Below are positions 2,972 through 43,823 of a stretch of DNA of 64,000 nucleotides, piece by piece. The DNA is taken from positions 806,001 to 870,000 of the forward strand of contig NZ_JACHWN010000001.1 of assembly GCF_014191375.1 (NCBI RefSeq), given 5' to 3'. The notes beneath the pieces were generated by a model. That model was not told where the DNA came from. It ran no database searches and saw only the letters and a list, made by a program, of their open reading frames with translations. This DNA comes from Mesorhizobium sp. RMAD-H1. Its GTDB lineage: Bacteria > Pseudomonadota > Alphaproteobacteria > Rhizobiales > Rhizobiaceae. The number at the start of each line of letters is the position of its first letter. The first letter of the stretch is position 1. Made by a program: the position numbers and the translations under genes.

Positions 2972-3601
2972 TCAGGCGGTTGCCTTCTTCATGGTTGCCG
3001 CCGCTTCGTCGTCCAGCCGGGTTGCGCGGGCCACTGCCTCGCGGTCCTTCAGCCGGTCCCAATAGGCGGCGAAGGCGGGGCGCTGTGGAAGCGTGCCGAA
3101 TTGCGTGCCCCAGGAGACATGCGAGCCGACATAGACATCGGCCGCGGTGAAGCGCTCGCCGGCGATATAGGGATGCCGCGATACGGCCTTTTCCAGCGTG
3201 TCGACAACGGAGGCATAGCTCCCATAGCCGACCATGCCGCTCTTATCGACGGGCGGTTCGAGGCCCAGTGCATGATTGGTCAGTGCCGCTTCGACAGGGC
3301 CTGCGGTGAAGAACATCCAGCGATAGTAATCGGCGCGTTCCTCGCGACGAGGCGCCAGTCCCGCTTCCGGAAAGGCCTCGGCCAGATAGGCGCAGATCGC
3401 GGCGGCCTCGGTCACGACATGGGCGCCATGGCGCAGCGCGGGAACCTTGCCCATCGGATTGATCGTGCAGTACTGGTCGTTCTTCATCGGCGGGCCGAAA
3501 TCGAGGATTTCCACATCATAGGGCTCGCCGATTTCCTCCAGCATCCAGCGGGCGATGCGGCCGCGCGACATCGGATTGGTGTAGAGCGTGAGTTCGGCCA
3601 T
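2972..3601 (-). CDS. Glutathione S-transferase family protein
   Basis: A 209-residue soluble GST. The N-terminal thioredoxin-like domain begins MAELTLYTNPMSRGRIARWM, with a serine/arginine start of helix 1 as in bacterial beta-like GSTs, and carries the cis-proline GKVPALRHG segment near residues 50-58 followed by TEAAAICAYLAE, the glutathione-binding SNAIL-like position. The helical C-terminal domain has the usual ERFTAADVYVG N-capping motif. AGGAGG lies 6 bases before the ATG at 3601. It is a monocistronic-looking gene between two convergent or tandem neighbours. The substrate cannot be told from sequence. Confidence 0.88.
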   Translation of the reverse strand: MAELTLYTNPMSRGRIARWMLEEIGEPYDVEILDFGPPMKNDQYCTINPMGKVPALRHGAHVVTEAAAICAYLAEAFPEAGLAPRREERADYYRWMFFTAGPVEAALTNHALGLEPPVDKSGMVGYGSYASVVDTLEKAVSRHPYIAGERFTAADVYVGSHVSWGTQFGTLPQRPAFAAYWDRLKDREAVARATRLDDEAAATMKKATA

Positions 3602-3660
3602 GGCGATTTCCTCCTGTGCGAGCTTATTTTTCCGGCAGATGCAGGATGCACCAGCTTCGT

Positions 3661-28168: not shown

Positions 28169-28245
28169 GCACCCGTAGCTCAGCTGGATAGAGTGCTGCC
28201 CTCCGAAGGCAGAGGTCACAGGTTCGAATCCTGTCGGGTGCGCCA
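28169..28245 (+). tRNA. tRNA-Arg (anticodon CCG)
   Basis: 77 nucleotides including an encoded CCA. Acceptor stem GCACCCG / CGGGTGC, D arm GCTCAGCTGGATAGAGC-like, anticodon loop CTCCGAA (anticodon CCG at 28203-28205), and T arm CAGGTTCGAATCCTG are all complete. It reads CGG codons. It marks the left edge of the accessory region, next to a recombinase remnant. Confidence 0.96.
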
Positions 28246-28255
28246 TTCTCGAACA

Positions 28256-28650
28256 AAAGAGAGAACTGCGGGCGGGGTCTTTCCCGTTTCTTGAGAGGCT
28301 GCCTTTGCAAGGATCGCCTTCGAGCCGCTGATCCTGATCTCTTCCTTCGTAACACGCACCTCCTGCATGAGGATTCGCGCATAGGCCTGCCGGAATTCCG
28401 GGGAGCCGTTCGTCAGCCGGTCGCACAATAATCGGGCGAACCGCTCGAGGGCGGGCGGACCGCCGGTTGCAGCTGTCACTGCGGTTGAAATGGTATCTGC
28501 CGATATAAGTGGCGGACGTCAGCAGATCGTGGATGCCTCCGGTGGAAAGAAAACCGCGATCCGTGCCGGGTGATGGCGCGTTCGTTGAGGTAAGTCGCGA
28601 TCGCCTTCACACCCAGCGGCCGCCCGCGCTCAGCCGAAGCCAGGTCGCAG
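28256..28650 (-). pseudogene. Serine-recombinase remnant beside tRNA-Arg
   Basis: Pieces of a large serine recombinase (Recombinase-domain family) on the minus strand. [20 protein letters not shown] lies in one frame around 28640-28580. [20 protein letters not shown] follows in another frame around 28545-28480. A C-terminal piece ([38 protein letters not shown]) ends near 28256. The catalytic N-terminal resolvase domain is absent, there is at least one frameshift, and sequence between the second and third pieces is lost. This is a dead integration gene lying directly against the tRNA. Recognition is by eye. Confidence 0.75.
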
Positions 28651-28895
28651 CACACCCGCCAGATCGCCTATTTCCTCACCTTGCATCGGATTTTGTTCCG
28701 GTGCCAGAATAGCCGTGCAATCATCCAGACGTGGCCATCATGAGAGGGCTAGCCTGTCGATCCAGCTTCATTGATCCCTCCAGCGAACGGTGAGTTCTCC
28801 GTCAAGGGCCTGAACCGCGCGGCTGATCATTCGATGATGAAGCGTTTGCGCGTGTCGCCACTTAGCGTTTCCGAAATAGCCTTTGGTTTTATCTA

Positions 28896-29936
28896 GAGCA
28901 GGTCCTGTGATCGATGAATCAATTGTGAAGTGACTGGCTGAGCCGAAGCTGATTCAACATCCCCAGCTAAGAGGTGGATGATGGCGCAGGCATTGAGCGA
29001 TGATCTTCGGTTACGTGTGTTGAAAGCCTCAGCGGCGGGCATGTCCGCTCGGCAGGCGGCCGCCAGGTTCGGGGTTGGGATTTCGACGGCGATCCGCTGG
29101 ATAGCAAGAGCGAAGGAAGGTGAGCCGACTTCCCGGCCGCAAGGCTGGAGGCGACCGTCGGCGCTGGATGCACACGAGGCCTTCGTCGTGGCACTGATCG
29201 AAAACCGTAAGGACGTGACGCTCGATGAAATGGTCGAGCGCTTGTCCGTTGAGCGGCAGGTGAAGATCAGCCGGAGTGCACTTGGCGGCTGGCTGCGAAG
29301 ACGCGGGTGGACGTTTAAAAAAGTCCGCACATGCATTGGAGCAAGACCGGCCGGATGTCCTGAAGCGTCGGCGCATCTGGTTTGATGGTCAGCTCGATCT
29401 CGATCCGGAGAAGCTGATCTTTATCGATGAAACCGGCCTTTCAACAAAGATGGCACGTCTGCGTGGACGTGCGCTTCGAGGCGAGCGTTGCCGAGCAGGC
29501 GTGCCGCACGGACATTGGAAAACAACGACATTCACCGGAGCACTGCGCCTTACCGGAATGACCGCACCGTTTGTTTACGATGGCGCAATGAACGGTAACG
29601 TCTTTCTGGCCTACGTCGAGCAGGTGCTGGTCCCGACCCTTCAGGCCGGGGACATCGTCGTGATGGACAACTTGCCGGCACACAAGACAGCCGGAGTTCG
29701 CGATGCCATCGAGCGCGCCGGCGCTAAACTCATGTTCCTCCCGCCCTACAGCCCCGACTTTAATCCAATCGAAAACGCATTCTCCAAACTGAAAGCCATG
29801 TTGCGAGGCCGGGCGGAGCGAAAGATCGACGCCCTCTGGGGCGCAGTCGGTGCTTTGATCCCTCGCTTCACACCGGCAGAATGCGCCAACTACTTCAGGG
29901 CCGCAGGATATGACCCGGATTGAACAGGATCTGCTC
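28896..29936 (+). mobile_element. IS630-family insertion sequence
   Basis: 1041 bp, flanked by TA on both sides (28894-28895 and 29937-29938), as expected of IS630/Tc1 elements. Ends are imperfect inverted repeats GAGCAGGTCCTGT and ACAGGATCTGCTC. One transposase gene in two frames fills it. It interrupts a leftward gene described at 28768-30143. Confidence 0.9.
28978..29923 (+). CDS. IS630 transposase, two overlapping frames
   Basis: DDE transposase in two pieces. The first frame (28978-29385) has the helix-turn-helix: [20 protein letters not shown] then [18 protein letters not shown]. The second (entering near 29312, ending 29923) has the catalytic residues: LIFIDETG (first Asp), VVMDNLPAH (second Asp) and [11 protein letters not shown] (Glu). 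The family-like reading switches at TTTAAAAAAG (29314-29323), WTFKK then [12 protein letters not shown], requiring a +1 or -2 shift. This could be programmed slippage on the A-run, common in this family, or a loss of two A's. Activity is therefore uncertain. Confidence 0.88.
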
Positions 29937-31320: not shown

Positions 31321-32412
31321 CTATCCTGCTCGGATCAGGTGAATAACAGCAACGAAAGTATAAAGAAGAAGGAAGACATTGACGCGATTAACGATGGTTT
31401 GCTGTGGGGCAAATCGGATATATTTCTTTGCTTCGGCATGAATGTAGATATCTAATTTACCCAATGCGATTGTTGCCAGAACGGCTGCTGTGACGCACAG
31501 CATGTAGGTGACTTCTGGCAGCGATTCCAGCTGCATGGTCCTGACAACGAGCAAGATAATCGGTACGTGGATCAGATACATCGCATAACTCCAGTCTCCC
31601 AGATTGCGCATGATCCTTGCATGCCACCCACTCAACAACGGAGCCGAGTTCTGTGCCGCTGCAGCTACCAAGAAGGCGGCTCCAATGCCAGCCGTCGTTC
31701 GGGCATAGGTTGCAGGATAGAAATAACTAATGGGTACAGCGGCCACAAAAAAGATCAGCAGCAGCCATCGCATCGGTGGAAGAAACCTAAGGGCAAACGG
31801 TATCGTAAGCCCCGCTGCGAAGCCCGCATTTGCATTCATGAAGAATATCTGGGTGAGATCGGCTCGGCCGATCCTTGGCATTGAAGGGTCATGCCGCAGA
31901 ATTAAAACCATCAGCCAAGTGAGCCCCAGCAACGGAAGATAACGCTCCCCCCGCATATAGATCATCGCGAAAACAATAACGTAAAAAAACATTTCATGGA
32001 CCAGCGTCCATTCAACATTCAATGCATAAAAGACCGGTCCTGCGGGAACGAGGCCTAAAGCAGCTATATCAAGATTTGGCAGGATTCGTTTCGGATCAAC
32101 TATCGCGGCAATTGCTGTTGCAATCCACATAGCCGGGTAGATCCGCGCAATTCGCGACGCAAGAAAATGATGCGCGGACTGCTTTCCAGCCAAAGTTGCC
32201 ATCAGGTACCCTGAGAGAGCAAAGAATATCGCAACGCCGTATAAGCCCAAAAAATGGTGGAATACGTCATATAGACCCGGTCCCAGATGTCCGTGAACAT
32301 AATGGGCGGCATGGTACAGCATCACCGCTGAAGCGGCGACTGCGCGAAGATACTGCAGATTTTCGTTAAAACTATATGTTGAATGCCCTGAGACGTCTGC
32401 CCGCGTGTCCAT
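31321..32412 (-). CDS. Acyltransferase-3 family membrane protein (OafA-like)
   Basis: 363-residue multi-spanning acyltransferase that typically O-acetylates or succinylates surface polysaccharides. It starts at the ATG at 32412 (AGGGG upstream) and begins NLQYLRAVAASAVMLYHAAH, the conserved R-x10-H of the family. The next blocks are GLYGVAIFFALSGYLM and FLASRIARIYPAMWIA, followed by about ten membrane helices. The catalytic His is in MLYHAAHYVHG. The open frame continues 32 codons upstream without family similarity. It belongs to the surface-glycan genes of the island; substrate unknown. Confidence 0.88.
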   Translation of the reverse strand: MDTRADVSGHSTYSFNENLQYLRAVAASAVMLYHAAHYVHGHLGPGLYDVFHHFLGLYGVAIFFALSGYLMATLAGKQSAHHFLASRIARIYPAMWIATAIAAIVDPKRILPNLDIAALGLVPAGPVFYALNVEWTLVHEMFFYVIVFAMIYMRGERYLPLLGLTWLMVLILRHDPSMPRIGRADLTQIFFMNANAGFAAGLTIPFALRFLPPMRWLLLIFFVAAVPISYFYPATYARTTAGIGAAFLVAAAAQNSAPLLSGWHARIMRNLGDWSYAMYLIHVPIILLVVRTMQLESLPEVTYMLCVTAAVLATIALGKLDIYIHAEAKKYIRFAPQQTIVNRVNVFLLLYTFVAVIHLIRAG

Positions 32413-32764
32413 CCACCCCTCATGGTCCGCCTTTTCTAAGGCTTTATTGCCGATGAGGATTGAGATAGCAATAACTGTCCCATCCGAGCAGCTTCTCTGT
32501 TCCGGCAAATGCCTCCTGCTGCGCTGATACGCTTTGCCATCAAACAGAGCGACGGGGCGCGATGACGATGGAAAATTTTAAGCGTTCGCTAACTCCATCA
32601 TTTATCGTTTGCTGGCATCACTGCCGGAATAATCCCCGGCACAGAACGGGCCCCGCAATGACGGACGGACAGATCAAGACGGCTGCTGCTCGATAGGGTT
32701 GCGTCCCCTGAGATAACACGCCGCTACTGCGCGGCAATTCCTCCCAAAGCGCAAAGGAAACATC
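32413..32764. other. Intergenic region with dispersed repeat copy A
   Basis: 352 bases. About 32610-32705 resembles 39525-39617 (see that entry). No gene supported. Confidence 0.45.
32611..32703. repeat. Dispersed ~92-base repeat, copy A
   Basis: Shares GGCATCACTGCCGGAAT, a GACGG..GACAGATCAA block and CTCGATAGG-TTG with copy B at 39526-39617, in the same order and orientation; roughly 70% identity by eye. On the minus strand both could encode the end of a short hydrophobic peptide (YRAAAVLIC / YRVAALLIC). Confidence 0.5.
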
Positions 32765-36172: not shown

Positions 36173-38287
36173 TCATTTCTCGCCAAACAAGGCGCTCCTC
36201 ACACTCTCGAGATGATGCGCGGGGGAGTGCTGCTTTTGGATCAACTCAATGGCAGCAGCCCCCATCTTCTTTCGCGTGTCGGCCGAATCCTTGAGACGTG
36301 TAATAGCGTCGATATAGGCTTCGATAAGATCAGCATCGCTGAGTGACGCGTCTACGACGAGACCGGTCTTTTCGTGGAGAACGATCTCAGGAATGCCGCC
36401 GATCGAGGGCGCGATCACCGGAAGACCAGCTCCCAAGGCGGAGAGCAGGACCGTGGGAATGCCGTCAAAGCGCGTGGTGTATATGAACATGTCCGATTGC
36501 CGATAGGGCAGATCTTCAAATGAAGAGAATTCGCCCCGGAGAACGACGTTTTCCTGTTGCTCGAGTTCCGTCAAATCCATCGCATTGAGCACCCGGGTGC
36601 CCCACACTTCAAGGATGGTGCCCGGGAACCGCTCCTTGATGGCGCGGGCCAGCGGCGCCAGAAGCTCCGGGCGCTTCTGATAATCCAGACGTGATGCCCA
36701 TAGGATCCTGTTGTGGAGGGTTGAGTACCGCCCCTCGACTTCGGAAGCTTCGGCTAGCGGCTTTGATGGCGAGTAAAGAACTTTCGTTTTGCCGGCGATA
36801 AACGGCAGGCGCGCTTGATCCAGATTTATGACGTGCTGGTTGTCGGAGAGGATCACTGTCAGGGCGTCCCCGTGCTCTGCCACGAAACCGAAATCGAACC
36901 CGACGGTGAAGGGGGCACCGTCGAGTTCGAACGCCCCGTCGCAGAAGCGGAGCATTACCGCTTCATGGCCGCTTAGGAGCTTCCTGTAGCGGTCATAGAA
37001 GCGGTAGCCGTAGGATGAGCTCTTGATGAATATCCGGGCGCCGGGGGCAAACGTCTGGATGGTCCGCAGCGTCAAGAGGTCGATCGTCTCGTCGTTGGCC
37101 TGATCAGAAAAGCGGTTGATATCGCAATAAGTAACGGATGCAGGCAACCGATCCAGCCATTTGTGTTCAGGCGTGTGCATCCCGAACAGCAGCAGCACTT
37201 TCCGGGCAGGATCGATCTTGAGCATTGCTTCCAAGGTGTCGATGATGACTTTCTCGGCGCCTCCGATCATGAAATACGGCAACAGGAAAACGTCCGTGAA
37301 GATCTTTCCTTGCAGGGTCTCGCATATCCGATAATAGGCAGCGCCAGCGCGAAGGTCCTCTTTCAGATTGGAGAAACAGTCCGCGGGACTGATGTATCGC
37401 AGGTTAACTGAAGGATCGATGAAATTGGCCGCGGAGCACAGTTCGATCATGAGACGGTTCGAAAAGAAGCGGTCGTGCAATTCCAAGCCGCTCGGCGCCC
37501 GTGGCGTCGAACCGACTGTATAGGACTGCCGCCCGTCTGCGCATACTTTGAGATAGTTCTCAGGCTTGAAAAAGTCGGAATAGGGGATGGTCTTCATCGA
37601 CGACGAGTTGACGGACGACAGCATGCTTACCCCCTTCTTGCGATAGAAGAAGACTGTGTTGGGGCAGGGCATCAGCGTGAAGCCGTGGGCCGCGAGATTG
37701 GAGTTATGGTGCCAATCCTCGTAGGCATACAGCCCATTGTGAGGGACGTCAGCCAAGCGAATTTGCAGGGCATGCTCACGGCGCAGGAACGATCTGGAAA
37801 TGAAAGGGTGATGATCGAACAGTGCCAGCTCGTTCACCTCAAAAAGGGGGAACATGCGGTAGAGATAGTGCTTGCTCCCGAAGGCAACGAGCCATTCAGG
37901 GAAGAGGACATGCTTCTCGGAAAGCTCTTCAGCCAACCGGTACATATCCCAAATGGAATTGTAGGAGATGAGATCGTCGGCGTCGGAAAGGGCAACATAC
38001 TTCCCTGAAGCCGCATCAATCCCGGCTTGGCGGCATGGCCCGAGAGACCCAACGGAAACGATGATGGTGATCACATTCGCGAACGAACCGAAATCACAAG
38101 CCGACAGGGCGGCCTTGATCGATGCAGTCGGATTATCCTGTACGATCACGAGCTCAGTCGTTACCCCATATCGGTGCGCGTAAGCGGCGGCCTCTGAGAA
38201 CGACCAAATGGTTCGCGCAAGGTATTTCGCGTCATCGTGAACGCTGAGGATGAGCGATACGTGAAATTTTTCTGCAGATTGTGACAT
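36173..38287 (-). CDS. Two-domain glycosyltransferase (GT2 + GT4)
   Basis: 704 residues. The N-terminal GT-A domain of family 2 (~8-230) starts HVSLILSVHDDAKYLARTIW and has the metal site YVALSDADDLIS plus the acceptor-side ED in YAYEDWHHNS. The C-terminal GT-B domain of family 4 (~330-700) contains FMIGGAEKVIIDTLE, ILWASRLDYQKRPELLAPLA and the donor loop TTRFDGIPTVLLSALGAGLP. One chain thus could add two sugars to a surface glycan. ATG at 38287 lies 4 bases after the stop of the upstream methyltransferase gene; a start at 38311 would overlap it. Co-transcribed with that gene. Confidence 0.88.
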   Translation of the reverse strand: MSQSAEKFHVSLILSVHDDAKYLARTIWSFSEAAAYAHRYGVTTELVIVQDNPTASIKAALSACDFGSFANVITIIVSVGSLGPCRQAGIDAASGKYVALSDADDLISYNSIWDMYRLAEELSEKHVLFPEWLVAFGSKHYLYRMFPLFEVNELALFDHHPFISRSFLRREHALQIRLADVPHNGLYAYEDWHHNSNLAAHGFTLMPCPNTVFFYRKKGVSMLSSVNSSSMKTIPYSDFFKPENYLKVCADGRQSYTVGSTPRAPSGLELHDRFFSNRLMIELCSAANFIDPSVNLRYISPADCFSNLKEDLRAGAAYYRICETLQGKIFTDVFLLPYFMIGGAEKVIIDTLEAMLKIDPARKVLLLFGMHTPEHKWLDRLPASVTYCDINRFSDQANDETIDLLTLRTIQTFAPGARIFIKSSSYGYRFYDRYRKLLSGHEAVMLRFCDGAFELDGAPFTVGFDFGFVAEHGDALTVILSDNQHVINLDQARLPFIAGKTKVLYSPSKPLAEASEVEGRYSTLHNRILWASRLDYQKRPELLAPLARAIKERFPGTILEVWGTRVLNAMDLTELEQQENVVLRGEFSSFEDLPYRQSDMFIYTTRFDGIPTVLLSALGAGLPVIAPSIGGIPEIVLHEKTGLVVDASLSDADLIEAYIDAITRLKDSADTRKKMGAAAIELIQKQHSPAHHLESVRSALFGEK

Positions 38288-38291
38288 AAAT

Positions 38292-39440
38292 TTACCGAAC
38301 GACTCTGGCAACGATACGGCGAGCTAGGCGTAATACTCTGCCCACCACGGGAATATCGTAAGCCCTTGAGAGACGGCGGATCATTCGGAGAGACTTTGAT
38401 CTGCGATACATCTCCAGTTCCGCCAGAAAGGAAGCTCGTGTTGCATCCATTTCTTTGCTGAGCTCTATCAACCTGCTTCGGTATGCGCTCAGTTCTTTGC
38501 CTTCGACCGCCAATCGCTTGGTCAGCGTCTCCTTTTCGTTACTGAGCTTTACTAACCTGCTTCGGTATGCGCCCAGTTCTTTGCGTTCGACCGCTAATCG
38601 CTTGTTCAGCGTATCGATCACCACGTCTTTTTCATCGAGAGTGCGTTCGAGATGCTCAATCTTCTGCCACGGGGAAACGAATGCAGGGTAGCACCAGGGC
38701 GAAACTACGGCGCTGGCGCCGACGCTTTTTCCCCACACCCCTACGAAATAGAGACATGAAGACGGATCAGCCGCAACCGCCGGCATCGGCGCGATGAGAG
38801 ATGTCGAGCTGATATCAGAGGGGGTCACGATTTCTATCAGCTTGGCATCTCGGTTGCTCGCTACCGCATCGTTGATGTCAAAGTTGACGATCCCCTGCTG
38901 AGGGGTGCCGAGAATCCAGTTCTTCGCCGGCCCGAGAATGTCCTCTGTCAGTCGGCGGAACTCGCCAAGGGTGTACGCAGCGACGTGGAACGGGTTTTCT
39001 TCCGGGTTGGAGAAATCGTTCTTTTCGTTCGGGCAACTGATGACAATCAGTCCATCGCGTTTAGCTAGACTCTTAATCGCCTTCAGGAACTTTGTAGCAT
39101 CGGCAAGGTGCTCGATAGTCTCAAAACATGCGATGACATCGAATTTTTTGCCCTTGAGAAAGGCATCCACGGTATGCGCGTCACCTTGATGGAACTGAAT
39201 ATTTTCTCTTTCGAATAGCCGTTTTGCTTCCGATATCGCCTCGGATGAAACATCGATCCCGGTGATGTTGGAGGCGCCCCATTCTGCGAGCAACGCAGAG
39301 CCGTATCCCTCGCCGCAGGCGATGTCGAGAACGGTTTTGCCGCGACAGTAATCTTTCAGGATCTGATACCGGCCAACATGCTGAGCCGCATAAAACGCAT
39401 CATAGTACTGGGCCTCAAGGTGCATCCGTTCTTCAGCCAT
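38292..39440 (-). CDS. SAM methyltransferase with repeated coiled-coil tail
   Basis: 382 residues. Residues ~15-200 are a class I methyltransferase: GKTVLDIACGEGYGSALLAE is motif I, NITGIDVSSEAISEA motif II, and FDVIACFETIEHL motif IV. A long C-terminal coiled coil follows, with a 28-residue unit in tandem (KRLAVERKELGAYRSRLVKL / KRLAVEGKELSAYRSRLIEL), and a basic end LRMIRRLSRAYDIPVVGRVL. The design recalls WbdD-like chain terminators that cap O-polysaccharides and measure length with a coiled coil; that is an analogy only. GGGAGG lies before the ATG at 39440. Confidence 0.85.
   Translation of the reverse strand: MAEERMHLEAQYYDAFYAAQHVGRYQILKDYCRGKTVLDIACGEGYGSALLAEWGASNITGIDVSSEAISEAKRLFERENIQFHQGDAHTVDAFLKGKKFDVIACFETIEHLADATKFLKAIKSLAKRDGLIVISCPNEKNDFSNPEENPFHVAAYTLGEFRRLTEDILGPAKNWILGTPQQGIVNFDINDAVASNRDAKLIEIVTPSDISSTSLIAPMPAVAADPSSCLYFVGVWGKSVGASAVVSPWCYPAFVSPWQKIEHLERTLDEKDVVIDTLNKRLAVERKELGAYRSRLVKLSNEKETLTKRLAVEGKELSAYRSRLIELSKEMDATRASFLAELEMYRRSKSLRMIRRLSRAYDIPVVGRVLRLARRIVARVVR
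38464..38604. repeat. Tandem 84-base coding repeat
   Basis: Two ~57-base near-identical blocks (38464-38520 and 38548-38604) repeat with an 84-base period, encoding the 28-residue coiled-coil unit of the methyltransferase. Confidence 0.75.
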
Positions 39441-39525
39441 GTCGCCTCCCGAATTGAGTAGCGACCTAGTACATGAGTGGCCGATTGGGGGCAATTTTTA
39501 TTCGACTGTCGCGTTTTCCTCGCGG

Positions 39526-39617
39526 CGGCATCACTGCCGGAATGGTCGGAGCTAAAACACCACGGCCGCTATGACGGCCAGACAGATCAACAGGGCGGCA
39601 ACTCGATAGGTTTGTAT
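39526..39617. repeat. Dispersed ~92-base repeat, copy B
   Basis: Partner of copy A at 32611-32703. Lies in the 286-base gap between the methyltransferase and membrane glycosyltransferase genes; the rest of this gap shows no gene. Confidence 0.5.
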
Positions 39618-39726: not shown

Positions 39727-41715
39727 CTATTTTGCGACTTCAATAAAAATATGATCGCACGTCGGGTTTTTGTTATTGGCTATCGTCAGCTTGATTTTCG
39801 GTCCAACAAACTTGCTCGTGTCAAAGACTGTAGGTTCGGTTTTGGTCACAGCTTTTTCCAACCGATCTCCGTTCCCTTCGATCGACACTACAACACCGTC
39901 AGACCCTTCACACGGTCTGACTAGTCCGATTCCCAGATTTCTCCCGGTCTCAAGTGTGAAGGTGGTTGGCGTGGTTTGACCTGGATGGGCTTCAATTCGG
40001 TTCTTCTCCATGTTGAACCATACGAAGCCCCACCTGTCTCCGGGTGAGATGACAGAGAGCATTTGATCTTGCAAAAGACTATTTTCATAGCGTTGCCGCC
40101 AGCCAGGATAAATAGCGTAGATCTCATCAAATACGCGGGCAATTTGCTCTCGAGTGATGGGCCGATTTTTTTTGAAAACCTGGGCCACTATTCCTTCAGC
40201 TAGGGTGTAATTGCCGCCGACTTGCGTATAGGTACCATCTGCAACAAATCTTCTGAAATTATCAGCGTAAGTGCGAATAACCTCCTGTCCCCTGACTAGA
40301 TGCGTTGCCATTGGGTTTGACAGTACAATAATGTCTGCAGAAAAGGGCTCCGGCATAAACCCGTGCATTTTATCTACATGCGGAATTGGTACGAAACGCT
40401 TGGTCAGTTTTTCACCTGATAAACTAGACATCATCGAATCATTGAAGTATCTGCCGGATCCGATCAGCGCAATTTTCTCTTCGCCGAGTGAAGTTAAATC
40501 TTCGGCTAGGCGCTCATATTCGGGATAGTTGGCCACTCGTAGCGGCCGGACGGCTGAGGGAACAAGATAACCCGGTGTATTAATCTTTGCTGGCAGAAAT
40601 GCCCAAGGCAGTACAAACACAAGCGCAGTATAGGCAATGGCTATTGAGTGCGTCTTAAACCCAGTTTGTTTAGCTATCACCGAAATTGCCAGCGCCTGAA
40701 GGAATAGAAGCCAAAACCCGATCATTAGGAAGTGATGGTTCTCAAATTGTTGGGTTCGGATAAAGGAAACGTACGTAATAATGCAGCAGGCCAACGTGTA
40801 GATGACATAGGGGCGAGCATGGTGATTTCGGATTCCGATTATTGCGCCTATGAGAGACAGACAAAGAGGTATTACCCCAAAGTGCGAATAAACTCTCCAA
40901 AGATGGAACGGTAATTCTCTCTGATACGCATCATACATATCGCCGTAGCTAGTGCCTAATATCCGCATCACAAGATCATATTGCAACGTCAACAGCAATA
41001 TTAGAGTTATGCTACCAGCAATTGCGTAGTTTATGATGGTATAAACAGCAGCGGTCTTGAGAGGCTTTTTATCAACAACGGTTGATAGATAGAGTGTCAG
41101 AAACGGCGCAAGTAGCGCTATTGGTATCACTCCGAACGCGTACCATCGTCTAGCAAGAAAAGTCGACCAAACAGAGACACCTATGATTAGTGCGGTACCT
41201 AGGTGAACTCGATCAGACCTAATCTGGAAAATCGCGCCTACTATGATGGTCATTGCGATCAAGCCAGCAACATCTGGTGCCCCCCGTAAGAGCGTTGACC
41301 AGATTGGCATGAATGCAAATGCGAGTAACGAAAAAATCCATGGCGAGACTTTTAGGAAAAAAACACGATCTGTAAAATTCTCTAAAAATATTCCAAATAC
41401 TATTGTAAATGGGATAAAGTACAGCAAAAGTAATGTTGATAAAAATGCTTCTCGAGTCTCGCTAGTAATGGAAATTAGTAATGACGGGATTGCTACGATA
41501 AGGTTATTATAGTCCGAAGAGCGGATGCTAGAATATACGCTATTTAGAAACTGTTTTTGGTTTTCAATGGCAAGATTACCAAGGTCCATGTATTGGACCC
41601 AATAGCCGCGGTAGTCCCACATATAAATTCGCTGCTCGAAGCAGATAAATATTCCTATCAATGCAAGGCCAAGTGTCGCAAATACGAACGTGGGAAACCA
41701 GTTTATCTTATTCAT
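39727..41715 (-). CDS. Large membrane glycosyltransferase (GT-C-like)
   Basis: 662 residues in an A+T-rich stretch. About ten membrane helices are followed by a ~250-residue soluble C-terminal domain. The first periplasmic loop contains FEQRIYMWDYRGYWVQYMD, an acidic pair after helix 1 as expected of polyprenyl-phosphate-sugar-dependent GT-C enzymes. The position directly downstream of a GtrA gene suggests it is the serotype-specific Gtr transferase that moves the sugar from the lipid carrier to the surface polysaccharide. ATG at 41715 chosen; an upstream GTG at 41799 would overlap the small membrane ORF. Sequence is not close to a named enzyme I know. Confidence 0.72.
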   Translation of the reverse strand: MNKINWFPTFVFATLGLALIGIFICFEQRIYMWDYRGYWVQYMDLGNLAIENQKQFLNSVYSSIRSSDYNNLIVAIPSLLISITSETREAFLSTLLLLYFIPFTIVFGIFLENFTDRVFFLKVSPWIFSLLAFAFMPIWSTLLRGAPDVAGLIAMTIIVGAIFQIRSDRVHLGTALIIGVSVWSTFLARRWYAFGVIPIALLAPFLTLYLSTVVDKKPLKTAAVYTIINYAIAGSITLILLLTLQYDLVMRILGTSYGDMYDAYQRELPFHLWRVYSHFGVIPLCLSLIGAIIGIRNHHARPYVIYTLACCIITYVSFIRTQQFENHHFLMIGFWLLFLQALAISVIAKQTGFKTHSIAIAYTALVFVLPWAFLPAKINTPGYLVPSAVRPLRVANYPEYERLAEDLTSLGEEKIALIGSGRYFNDSMMSSLSGEKLTKRFVPIPHVDKMHGFMPEPFSADIIVLSNPMATHLVRGQEVIRTYADNFRRFVADGTYTQVGGNYTLAEGIVAQVFKKNRPITREQIARVFDEIYAIYPGWRQRYENSLLQDQMLSVISPGDRWGFVWFNMEKNRIEAHPGQTTPTTFTLETGRNLGIGLVRPCEGSDGVVVSIEGNGDRLEKAVTKTEPTVFDTSKFVGPKIKLTIANNKNPTCDHIFIEVAK

Positions 41716-41771
41716 GTTTTTAATTCTGAATGGGTTTCCAATGGTAGATCCAAATCGTCCTGCTGGTTGTA

Positions 41772-41894
41772 TTAGAAGGCGTCTATAAGCAAAATACACA
41801 AAGCCAACAAGAAGAATGCGATAGCAGCGAATATCCCGATTATCGATATCGCCGTCGCCAGAGCAGTTCTTTTCTGGTAGTCTACGGCTGTCAT
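41772..41894 (-). CDS. 40-residue single-span membrane protein
   Basis: ATG at 41894 overlaps the stop of the GtrA gene (ATGA). It reads MTAVDYQKRTALATAISIIG, then IFAAIAFFLLALCILLIDAF, ending at TAA 41772-41774. One membrane helix with a short basic cytoplasmic start. The tight overlap and the location between gtrA-like and glycosyltransferase genes argue that it is translated. It is too short to match a family by eye; it may be a subunit or regulator of the glucosylation complex. Confidence 0.6.
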   Translation of the reverse strand: MTAVDYQKRTALATAISIIGIFAAIAFFLLALCILLIDAF

Positions 41895-42262
41895 TTTTTA
41901 AATACCCAAGCCCGTGAGAGAATGAAGAATGAAACAGTGTATGAAGCCATAGCTATGAATTGCGGGACTAACACGTGGTAGCGTTCTAGTGGAAGGCTCA
42001 CATGCAGCACCAGAACATTGACAGCATAGCAAAATGCGAACGCAACCAGAAAGCGTGCGCTTGTGGTCCAGTTGCTGTCTGACTGGAACGTCCACTTCAT
42101 GTTTCCGAAGTAGCTATTCAATAAGCCAACGACATAGCCAGCCCCATTAGCGACAAATGGCGAAGTCCCAAGCCATGTTAAAACAGCAATCACGATCAGC
42201 GTGATGAGCGTATTCAGTAGCCCAACCAGGCCGAACCGGCCAAACTGCATTAACACATTCAT
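41891..42262 (-). CDS. GtrA-family membrane protein (putative flippase)
   Basis: 123 residues with four membrane helices. The GtrA signature FGRFGLVGLLNTLITLIVIA opens the protein, and GYVVGLLNSYFGNMKWTFQS is the conserved loop. Proteins of this family are thought to flip undecaprenyl-phosphate-glucose across the inner membrane for glycan decoration, and are common in serotype-converting phages. First gene of a leftward operon with the 40-residue ORF and the large transferase. Divergent from the GtrB-type gene, 78 bases away. Confidence 0.88.
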   Translation of the reverse strand: MNVLMQFGRFGLVGLLNTLITLIVIAVLTWLGTSPFVANGAGYVVGLLNSYFGNMKWTFQSDSNWTTSARFLVAFAFCYAVNVLVLHVSLPLERYHVLVPQFIAMASYTVSFFILSRAWVFKK

Positions 42263-42340
42263 CGCAAGTCCATCGATTGTTTTTTTCCGCTGCTTCTGGC
42301 AGTTGACGTGTCCAAGGGCAAGGGAATTTCAGGGCCGAAG

Positions 42341-43336
42341 ATGATTTCTATATCGATTGTTGTGCCGGTGTATTCAGGCGAGGCATACATCCGGAAGTTT
42401 TGTGAACGGGTTTCAGCGTTGCGTTCCTGCCTGACGGAGAAATCGGCGCCGTTCCAAATCATCGAGTTGATCTTTGTCGAGGATGGAGCAAAGGACAGAT
42501 CTGGCGCGATAATTGATGAGCTGGGTTCCCAATTGGATTGGGTAAAGCCGTTCCATCTGTCGCGAAATTATGGGCAGCACGCGGCGACGGTTGCGGGCAT
42601 TATGAAAAGCGGGGGTGATTGGGTCGTCACCATGGACGAGGACATGCAGCACCCGCCGGAGGAAATCGAACGCCTGTTGGAAAAGGCCATAAAGCAGGGC
42701 GGCGATGTGGTTTATGCAAACCCGGAAGAGGCCGTTCACCAAAGTTTCATGCGCGATTGGACGTCGAGGAAATTCAAGTCGTTAATGGTCAGGTTGAGCG
42801 GGAACAGGAACATAACGGTATTCAATAGCTTCCGGCTCATCCGTGGGAGCGTGGCTCGTGAGGCTTCAAGGGCGTGCGGTCATAGCACCTATTTCGACAT
42901 GGCCCTGTCATGGTTCACTGAGCGCGTATGCAACGTCACGATGCGCCTGAAGGATGAGCGGTTTATCGCCACCGGGAACAGCGGCTACAATCTTAAAAGG
43001 CTGTTCAGTCATGCGCGTCGATTGCTGTTCTCGACTCAGGTGAAAGCGTTGCGCATTGGCAGCGCAATCGGAGGTCTCGCGGTCTGTCTTGCGGTCCTGT
43101 TCTCTGCCGTTCTGATTGCCGCAAAACTGATCGATCCATCAATAATACCGGTTTCTGGTTGGGCATCGTTGATGATCACCATTATGTTTTTCGGTGGGAT
43201 ATCTATCTTCCTGATAGGATTGGTCATCGAGTATATTTCGATCCTGATAATGGATACGCACGGCAAGCCTCTTTTCAACTTCGTGGACAGAAGCTCAGAC
43301 AGGGTTCTGCAGGAATATTTTAACGGGAAGAGTTAG
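42341..43336 (+). CDS. GtrB-type polyprenyl-phosphate glycosyltransferase (GT2)
   Basis: 331 residues. The cytoplasmic GT2 domain begins MISISIVVPVYSGEAYIRKF; VFVED-like LIFVEDGAKDRSG and TMDEDMQHPPEEIERLLE give the nucleotide and metal residues. Two C-terminal helices (AIGGLAVCLAVLFSAVLIAA and IMFFGGISIFLIGLVIEYIS) anchor it, as in GtrB, which makes undecaprenyl-phosphate-sugar. ATG at 42341 fits the family; the frame begins with a GTG at 42308. It probably supplies the lipid-linked sugar for the divergent GtrA/transferase pair. Terminator at 43378-43402. Confidence 0.88.
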   Translation: MISISIVVPVYSGEAYIRKFCERVSALRSCLTEKSAPFQIIELIFVEDGAKDRSGAIIDELGSQLDWVKPFHLSRNYGQHAATVAGIMKSGGDWVVTMDEDMQHPPEEIERLLEKAIKQGGDVVYANPEEAVHQSFMRDWTSRKFKSLMVRLSGNRNITVFNSFRLIRGSVAREASRACGHSTYFDMALSWFTERVCNVTMRLKDERFIATGNSGYNLKRLFSHARRLLFSTQVKALRIGSAIGGLAVCLAVLFSAVLIAAKLIDPSIIPVSGWASLMITIMFFGGISIFLIGLVIEYISILIMDTHGKPLFNFVDRSSDRVLQEYFNGKS

Positions 43337-43377
43337 CCCAACGGTCCGAACGCCACACCAGCATTTTGTGACGTCTG

Positions 43378-43402
43378 AGCCGCCCGATGAGGCGGCTTTT
43401 TC
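43378..43402 (+). terminator. Rho-independent terminator of the GtrB-type gene
   Basis: Stem AGCCGCC / GGCGGCT (43378-43384, 43391-43397) followed by a TTTTTC run. Confidence 0.8.
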
Positions 43403-43424
43403 TATGGCATCGCCATGATCGCCG

Positions 43425-43560
43425 TGGGAAGGCACGAAGAATGTCGCCTATTGGGAAGCCTGGTAAAGGTCTGAACCGTTTGCACCGGCGAGACCAAATG
43501 CGTGAAGAAAGGCGACCGGTACACCGACGAGCAGTGTGCCGAAATGCTCTGCTAGACACG
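43425..43560 (+). pseudogene. GH24-type phage lysozyme relic
   Basis: WEGTKNVAYWEAW followed by a stop, then in a second frame TVCTGETKCVKKGDRYTDEQ and CAEMLC before another stop. The combination W-E-G..AY..(G)..TVCTGET..(K)GD..TDEQC is the start of phage lysozymes of glycoside hydrolase family 24, including the catalytic Glu in WEG. The remainder is lost, and the rest of the 487-base gap up to 43823 shows no gene. Second dead lysis gene of the island. Recognition is by motif only. Confidence 0.55.
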
Positions 43561-43823
43561 AGAGAAGGACCATCGCCGGCCGTTCCTGGCGTGCACCAAG
43601 GGGGATCGCCTTCCGATCAGGTTCAACAAAGCCGGCGACAAAGCCATCCGTGGCTTGGTGCTTGGCTCAGGGCACGGGTGCAGAGCGATTGAGCAGGGTC
43701 CAATCTGAAACCAAGATAGACTGTTCGCCAAGGACACGTGCCATATATAACTTGGGTCGGCATGGGCCGTTACACTCTTTCGGTTGCGAACGCAGAACGC
43801 CGCCGCACCGCGCTGCACGCGTC

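Follow-up and report, generated by a model that had tools for sequence, protein, structure and literature searches.

A phage-type glycosylation cassette of Mesorhizobium sp. RMAD-H1 in which a 40-codon membrane frame is probably the scar of a replaced type gene

A surface glycosylation (gtr) cassette of Mesorhizobium sp. RMAD-H1 lies at positions 39727-43336 of the 64,000-nucleotide stretch analysed here (the window; positions 806001-870000 of contig C1, NZ_JACHWN010000001.1, in a genome of 5.14 Mb and 21 contigs). Between gtrA and the gene of a large transferase it carries a frame of 40 codons, and the question raised by this locus is whether this frame is an additional component of the cassette, as the initial annotation had proposed, or something else. 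In gtr systems the first step, the loading of bactoprenol phosphate with a sugar, is the task of GtrB; GtrA then flips the loaded carrier across the inner membrane and a type-specific transferase moves the sugar onto the surface polysaccharide. We consider it probable that the cassette belongs to a decayed prophage, that its type gene was swapped and that the 40-codon frame is the 5' stub of the replaced GtrII-type transferase gene. The locus would most likely be of a known kind, a phage cassette for sugar conversion whose type gene was swapped, and its "uncatalogued protein" of 40 residues a scar.

Reading of the frames confirmed four intact ones, namely gtrA, the 40-codon membrane frame and a multi-span transferase on the minus strand and a divergent gtrB on the plus strand, together with the ATGA overlap described at first. 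The closest relatives of gtrB were found in two viral contigs, L046 (IMGVR_UViG_2565956514_000005) and L047 (IMGVR_UViG_2844220540_000005), and then in the prophage L045; in all three, the cassette is flanked by tail fibre genes and, at its opposite end, by an endolysin. The features of the locus, in window positions, are the following.

41891..42262, minus strand: gtrA, flippase-like, 123 residues (PF04138, 2e-22; 76% identity with GtrA of L046)
41772..41894, minus strand: 40-codon single-span frame with an ATGA overlap with gtrA, read as the probable 5' stub of a replaced GtrII-type gene (frame; match to L046)
41808..41873, minus strand: codons 8-29 of the 40-codon frame, which can be aligned with L046 (identity at 11 of 22 residues and 34 of 66 bases, then at 7 of 36 bases)
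41712..41771, minus strand: 19 open codons past the TAA of the 40-codon frame, closed by a TGA overlapping the ATG of the transferase (frame read-through)
39727..41715, minus strand: type-specific multi-span transferase, putatively GT-C-like, 662 residues (homologues 28-31% identical)
42263..42340, no strand: divergent gtrA/gtrB spacer of 78 bases, within the 73% alignment block with L046
42341..43336, plus strand: gtrB, bactoprenol-sugar transferase-like (PF00535; PHROG 841; 81-82% identity with L046 and L047)
43377..43398, plus strand: terminator-like hairpin after gtrB (8 pairs, 6 of them G-C, then T-rich)
43424..43705, plus strand: broken lysozyme (endolysin) remnant (PHROG 7, 9.6e-06; Pfam just below the cut-off)

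The 40-codon frame overlaps the gtrA stop and carries one clean membrane helix. In L046, the gene overlapping the gtrA stop (here as GTGA) codes for a 480-residue transferase matching PF14264 (GtrII, 1.5e-10), and residues 8-29 of the 40-codon frame align without gaps and in register with residues 8-29 of this protein, with 11 of 22 identical and a score of 57. The aligned segment covers the first membrane helix of the L046 transferase, and in the next 11 codons a single residue is identical. Codon positions 1, 2 and 3 are identical in 11, 18 and 5 of the 22 codons, respectively; since both sequences are membrane helices, identity at position 2 is inflated, and controls therefore matter. The score of 57 was reached by none of 1000 shuffles, by none of 1985 start-aligned membrane segments (maximum 41) and, along the start-aligned diagonal, by none of a 1044-segment control set (maximum 35), while the DNA identity of 34 of 66 bases was reached by 1 of 10000 codon shuffles. 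When 602,112 residues in 9,288 segments, taken from the fetched loci and the window, were scored exhaustively, the L046 transferase start ranked first at 57, followed by two segments at 44; similarity to GtrA or GtrB is weaker than that to the L046 transferase. As the gene at the same gtrA overlap in L046 matches in register, the 40-codon frame looks like a truncation stub and not like an extra component. We also count in favour of a stub its third-position G+C, which at 0.56, over only 41 codons, is similar to that of gtrA (0.55) and not to that of the transferase (0.45). With respect to the GtrII family, the N-terminal helix is found at the gtrA junction, in register with L046, and the transferase body is missing, given that the frame stops after 40 codons, with no Pfam match and no further L046-like sequence in the window. 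To judge from these comparisons, it would be a remnant of GtrII and not a member.

A chance open frame between gtrA and an inserted transferase, without any gene ancestry, is an unlikely explanation. The frame is indeed short and was found nowhere else, and any gene ending in ...A TGA yields an ATGA overlap, but its in-register similarity to the gene at the very same junction of L046, above the controls, is at odds with an origin by chance.

Several observations weigh against a stub. The match depends on one relative and on 22 residues of a membrane helix, though these appear at the expected position. Among 15 transferases compared only that of L046 is clear; L027 comes next with a score of 32, which 43 of 1000 shuffles reach, and the L045 protein, distantly homologous to the L046 transferase, scores 29 (96 of 1000). 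GtrB and the transferase of L042 score 34 and 37 against the stub (7 and 11 of 200 shuffles, respectively), the second-ranked score of 44 includes a membrane helix of the L046 GtrB, and, when stub-resembling loci are kept in the control set, free local alignment gives 57 for 7 of its 1044 segments, L046 itself being one of them. The match was detected by full dynamic programming, and BLAST misses it even at E 10, presumably because of seeding. No L046-like transferase turned up at another place in the window, among 180 relatives (genome G835 excepted) or in plasmid or phage records.

A further point on this side is that, past its TAA, the frame is open for 19 codons up to a TGA overlapping the transferase start as ATGA. 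This read-through could be a junction with the end of a donor gene, or could hint at a former 60-codon gene, and it keeps a functional protein alive as a reading. A rough estimate, from one frame in three and a run of 19 open codons, is that chance would produce it about 1 time in 10, so that we do not lean on it as evidence; when the 19 codons were compared with 10 GtrB C-termini, the best score was reached by 22 of 500 shuffles.

Such a protein would be a working single-span partner of GtrA or of the transferase, coupled translationally to the gtrA stop, and the ATGA coupling, the clean helix, the frame open to the second ATGA overlap apart from its own TAA and the intact state of the other three cassette genes would all agree with it. 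Even so we hold it to be quite unlikely, because no standalone gene of this kind was found in the collections searched. Plasmid and phage records gave no match at E 10, a weak negative since low-complexity filtering may hide a query as hydrophobic as this one. Among the 394 genomes of the family, the frame scores well only in its own copy, 51 other genomes giving E values of 0.03-1. Moreover, the transferase homologues of enteric plasmids, L041, L042, L028 and L029 lie in three-gene sets where an extra frame was not noted. The initial annotation had made its proposal dependent on conservation of the frame among close relatives, and as far as this check reached its outcome goes against the proposal, no close relative with the same frame having been found. 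The best of the 51 weak matches, L032, was discarded when its locus was read and contained no gtr genes. It is very unlikely that the stub itself, as the first membrane helix of a replaced GtrII transferase, has survived as an independent single-span protein that is translated through its coupling to gtrA and acts in trans on either GtrA or the transferase that came in; if true, the gene swap would have given rise to a new small component.

The interpretation as a stub of a swapped type gene is set in the gene order of the phage relatives. Window positions 41891-43321 align with L046 5545-6975 at 73% DNA identity, the alignment ending at the gtrA stop, and GtrB and GtrA of L046 are 81% and 76% identical to those of the window. 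The order in L046 is tail fibre, leftward transferase and gtrA, rightward gtrB, endolysin, and thus, like the window, L046 has gtrA and a transferase gene leftward with a four-base overlap and a divergent gtrB, with the tail fibre at left and the endolysin at right. Unlike the window, it has a full-length GtrII-type transferase (PF14264) at the place where the window has the stub and an unrelated transferase. Altogether, gtrB faces away from its gtr neighbour in five of seven related loci read (L045, L046, L047, L057 and L060); in L058 the neighbour of gtrB is another membrane protein and in L059 gtrB is at the contig end, whereas the viral locus L048, with 31% GtrB identity, was too distant to be counted. 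The split layout is therefore common in this gtrB lineage, and the window, whose divergent gtrB departs from the usual (not defining) order of three genes in one direction, does not have the unusual arrangement that had been attributed to it.

On the right of gtrB, the broken lysozyme matches the PHROG 7 endolysin (9.6e-06) over residues 14-59 and the Phage_lysozyme model at 1.9e-04, with 22.2 bits against a cut-off of 22.3. The left-side "lysis" fragment has no PHROG match and a chance-level Pfam match, and in comparison with the fetched loci it matched nothing but a partial repeat inside the window. Of the dead phage lysis genes reported on both sides, the right one is thus retained, weakly supported, and the left one is not. 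A Gtr-like cassette of phage origin, as originally suggested, is sustained by the gene set and layout of L046 and by the lysozyme remnant, while the 40-codon frame as an extra component gives way to the L046 match. It seems rather improbable that the cassette is instead part of a chromosomal glycan locus beside the genes at 36173-39494, with the phage scraps as bystanders. These methyltransferase and glycosyltransferase neighbours are of glycan type, and replicons of Phyllobacterium, Thioclava and Paracoccus have split gtr sets whose annotated neighbours, as far as shown, include no phage gene; nevertheless, the nearest gtrA/gtrB relatives are all bordered by a tail fibre and an endolysin, two of them in viral contigs and one in a prophage, and the lysozyme remnant lies downstream of the window's own gtrB.

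Like the window, L047 has divergent gtrA and gtrB in the same place. Unlike the window, it carries beyond gtrA a convergent membrane frame of 527 codons matching no family, which we take, judged by place and look only, to be another type gene. Between its tail fibre and gtrA (3222-3644, minus strand) a fragment of about 134 residues shares 33% identity (5.8e-16) with the C-terminal end of the window's transferase; it is what remains of the 3' part of a gene from that family, a mirror of the stub. Taken together, the 5' stub of the window and the 3' fragment of L047 suggest that type genes are exchanged here and leave remnants on both sides. Within this lineage of phages, gtrB runs rightward and gtrA runs leftward together with the type gene, the set being enclosed by tail fibre and endolysin; the type gene would be exchangeable. 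Recombination has probably put a transferase of another family in place of the GtrII-type gene. About 29 codons of the old gene would be left, retaining the four-base overlap with gtrA and now reaching a stop as the 40-codon frame, with the incoming transferase gene beginning 56 bases past this stop. What was observed are the gene identities, the common layout, the in-register similarity of the stub to the L046 transferase and the 3' remnant of L047; the swap itself we infer, as we do the activity of the present cassette, its sugar and its target. An apparently new membrane protein would in this way become the trace of a specificity change, in which the flippase and carrier-loading genes stay and the type gene beside the tail fibre is exchanged. 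The case also cautions that a small membrane frame at the junction of two operon genes may be a remnant of truncation.

The large transferase frame had been listed from a GTG at 41799, and alignment with a plasmid homologue supports the ATG at 41715, 56 bases beyond the stop of the 40-codon frame, as its start, so that the two need not overlap. The protein matched no Pfam or NCBIfam model, and together with seven homologues it gave a single, chance-level Pfam match. It is about 29% identical over 92% to gene X of the gtrA-gtrB-X sets in 17 enteric plasmid records (e.g., NZ_CP073960.1, WP_023312628.1), homologues with 28-31% identity being found on enteric plasmids and in L041, L042 and L057. 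Homologues in Tatumella and Snodgrassella, the two confirmed among 86 candidate stretches, are both downstream of gtrA and gtrB by their frames. Scans of genome contigs with the single protein and a first scan of viral contigs confirmed no relative; a search of 101 genomes, five of them from further members of the genus, found no transferase beyond that of the own genome, and in the class 4 of 385 genomes had it, the own counted. Its putative assignment as a type-specific GT-C transferase derives from homology to the third gene of gtrA-gtrB-X sets, with no Pfam family, no relative of solved structure found and a poor structure model, built with three sequences (mean predicted local distance difference test score, pLDDT, 52). 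The family is present on Klebsiella, Escherichia, Raoultella and Enterobacter plasmids (NZ_CP073960.1, that is L020, and 16 other records), annotated mostly as "hypothetical protein", and, despite this occurrence, has no Pfam model.

GtrA matches PF04138 and PHROG 2224 (1.6e-08), as expected of a GtrA-type flippase, and is the sole PF04138 match of the whole genome. GtrB, a family-2 transferase with membrane helices at its C-terminus, matches PF00535 (1.3e-24) and PHROG 841, "GtrB-like O-antigen conversion" (3.1e-51), and is 69% identical to that of the prophage L045. Its more likely start, preferred over the GTG at 42308, is the ATG at 42341, common to L046 and L047. Close gtrB genes were found in 2 of 121 relatives and, at E 1e-100, in 6 of 394 family genomes, the own genome being counted in both. 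In the 78-base spacer a simple scan found no sigma-70-like site, and no inverted repeats able to flip gtrB were found flanking it. The stretch has three terminator-like hairpins, with no clear excess over the shuffle mean of 1.9.

The cassette is A+T-rich as initially described, with G+C of 0.42-0.46 in 1-kilobase windows at 40000-42499 and of 0.59-0.69 from 44000 onward. In the same-genus genome G005, 95% identity to the window begins at 43735, just past the lysozyme remnant, placing the right edge of the acquired DNA near 43735. To the left of this point G005 has frames that resemble, by look, mobile-element genes; the same chromosomal place holds different DNA (L065, 1-7473), in which a tRNA-Met and recombinase-like and mobilisation-like frames were recognised by eye. 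This chromosomal site seems to take up mobile DNA repeatedly. At 28169-28900 of the window, a tRNA-Arg is followed by a broken minus-strand frame resembling, by eye, the terminal part of a serine recombinase; a DDE transposase frame comes next, at 29276-29923. The tRNA-Arg region is possibly the left edge of an island; no second copy of the tRNA-Arg end was found in the window, hence no att pair. Adjoining the cassette, 36173-39494 (minus strand) holds a second pair of glycan-type genes, one for a methyltransferase and one for a protein of 712 residues that combines glycosyltransferase domains of family 2 and group 1. The low-G+C stretch of the cassette also includes an acyltransferase gene (Acyl_transf_3 family, 31321-32508, minus strand, 9.7e-23), and serotype conversion is among the roles of such O-acetylating enzymes. 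Two imperfect copies of a repeat, about 90 bases long, are found at 39527-39614 and 32614-32701, on the same strand, upstream of the methyltransferase and acyltransferase genes, respectively.

Title-and-text literature searches found nothing on a small ORF (open reading frame) with gtrA/gtrB, on gtrA in Rhizobium prophages or on the gtr order of alphaproteobacteria. The enteric plasmid gtrA-gtrB-X sets are like the window in that X is homologous to its transferase, and unlike it in having all three genes in one direction and no small frame annotated. The Salmonella gtrABC operons, as far as the portion of PMC3688519 consulted describes them, differ from the window in belonging to other bacteria and in having no described stub of a replaced gene. 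Like the window, they have a type gene that varies independently of gtrA and gtrB through recombination: in that portion, the gtrC families are described as not congruent with gtrA and gtrB, and recombination within the operon is reported (PMC3688519). With recombination in gtr operons already published for Salmonella, the window would be a tidy case of a known process.

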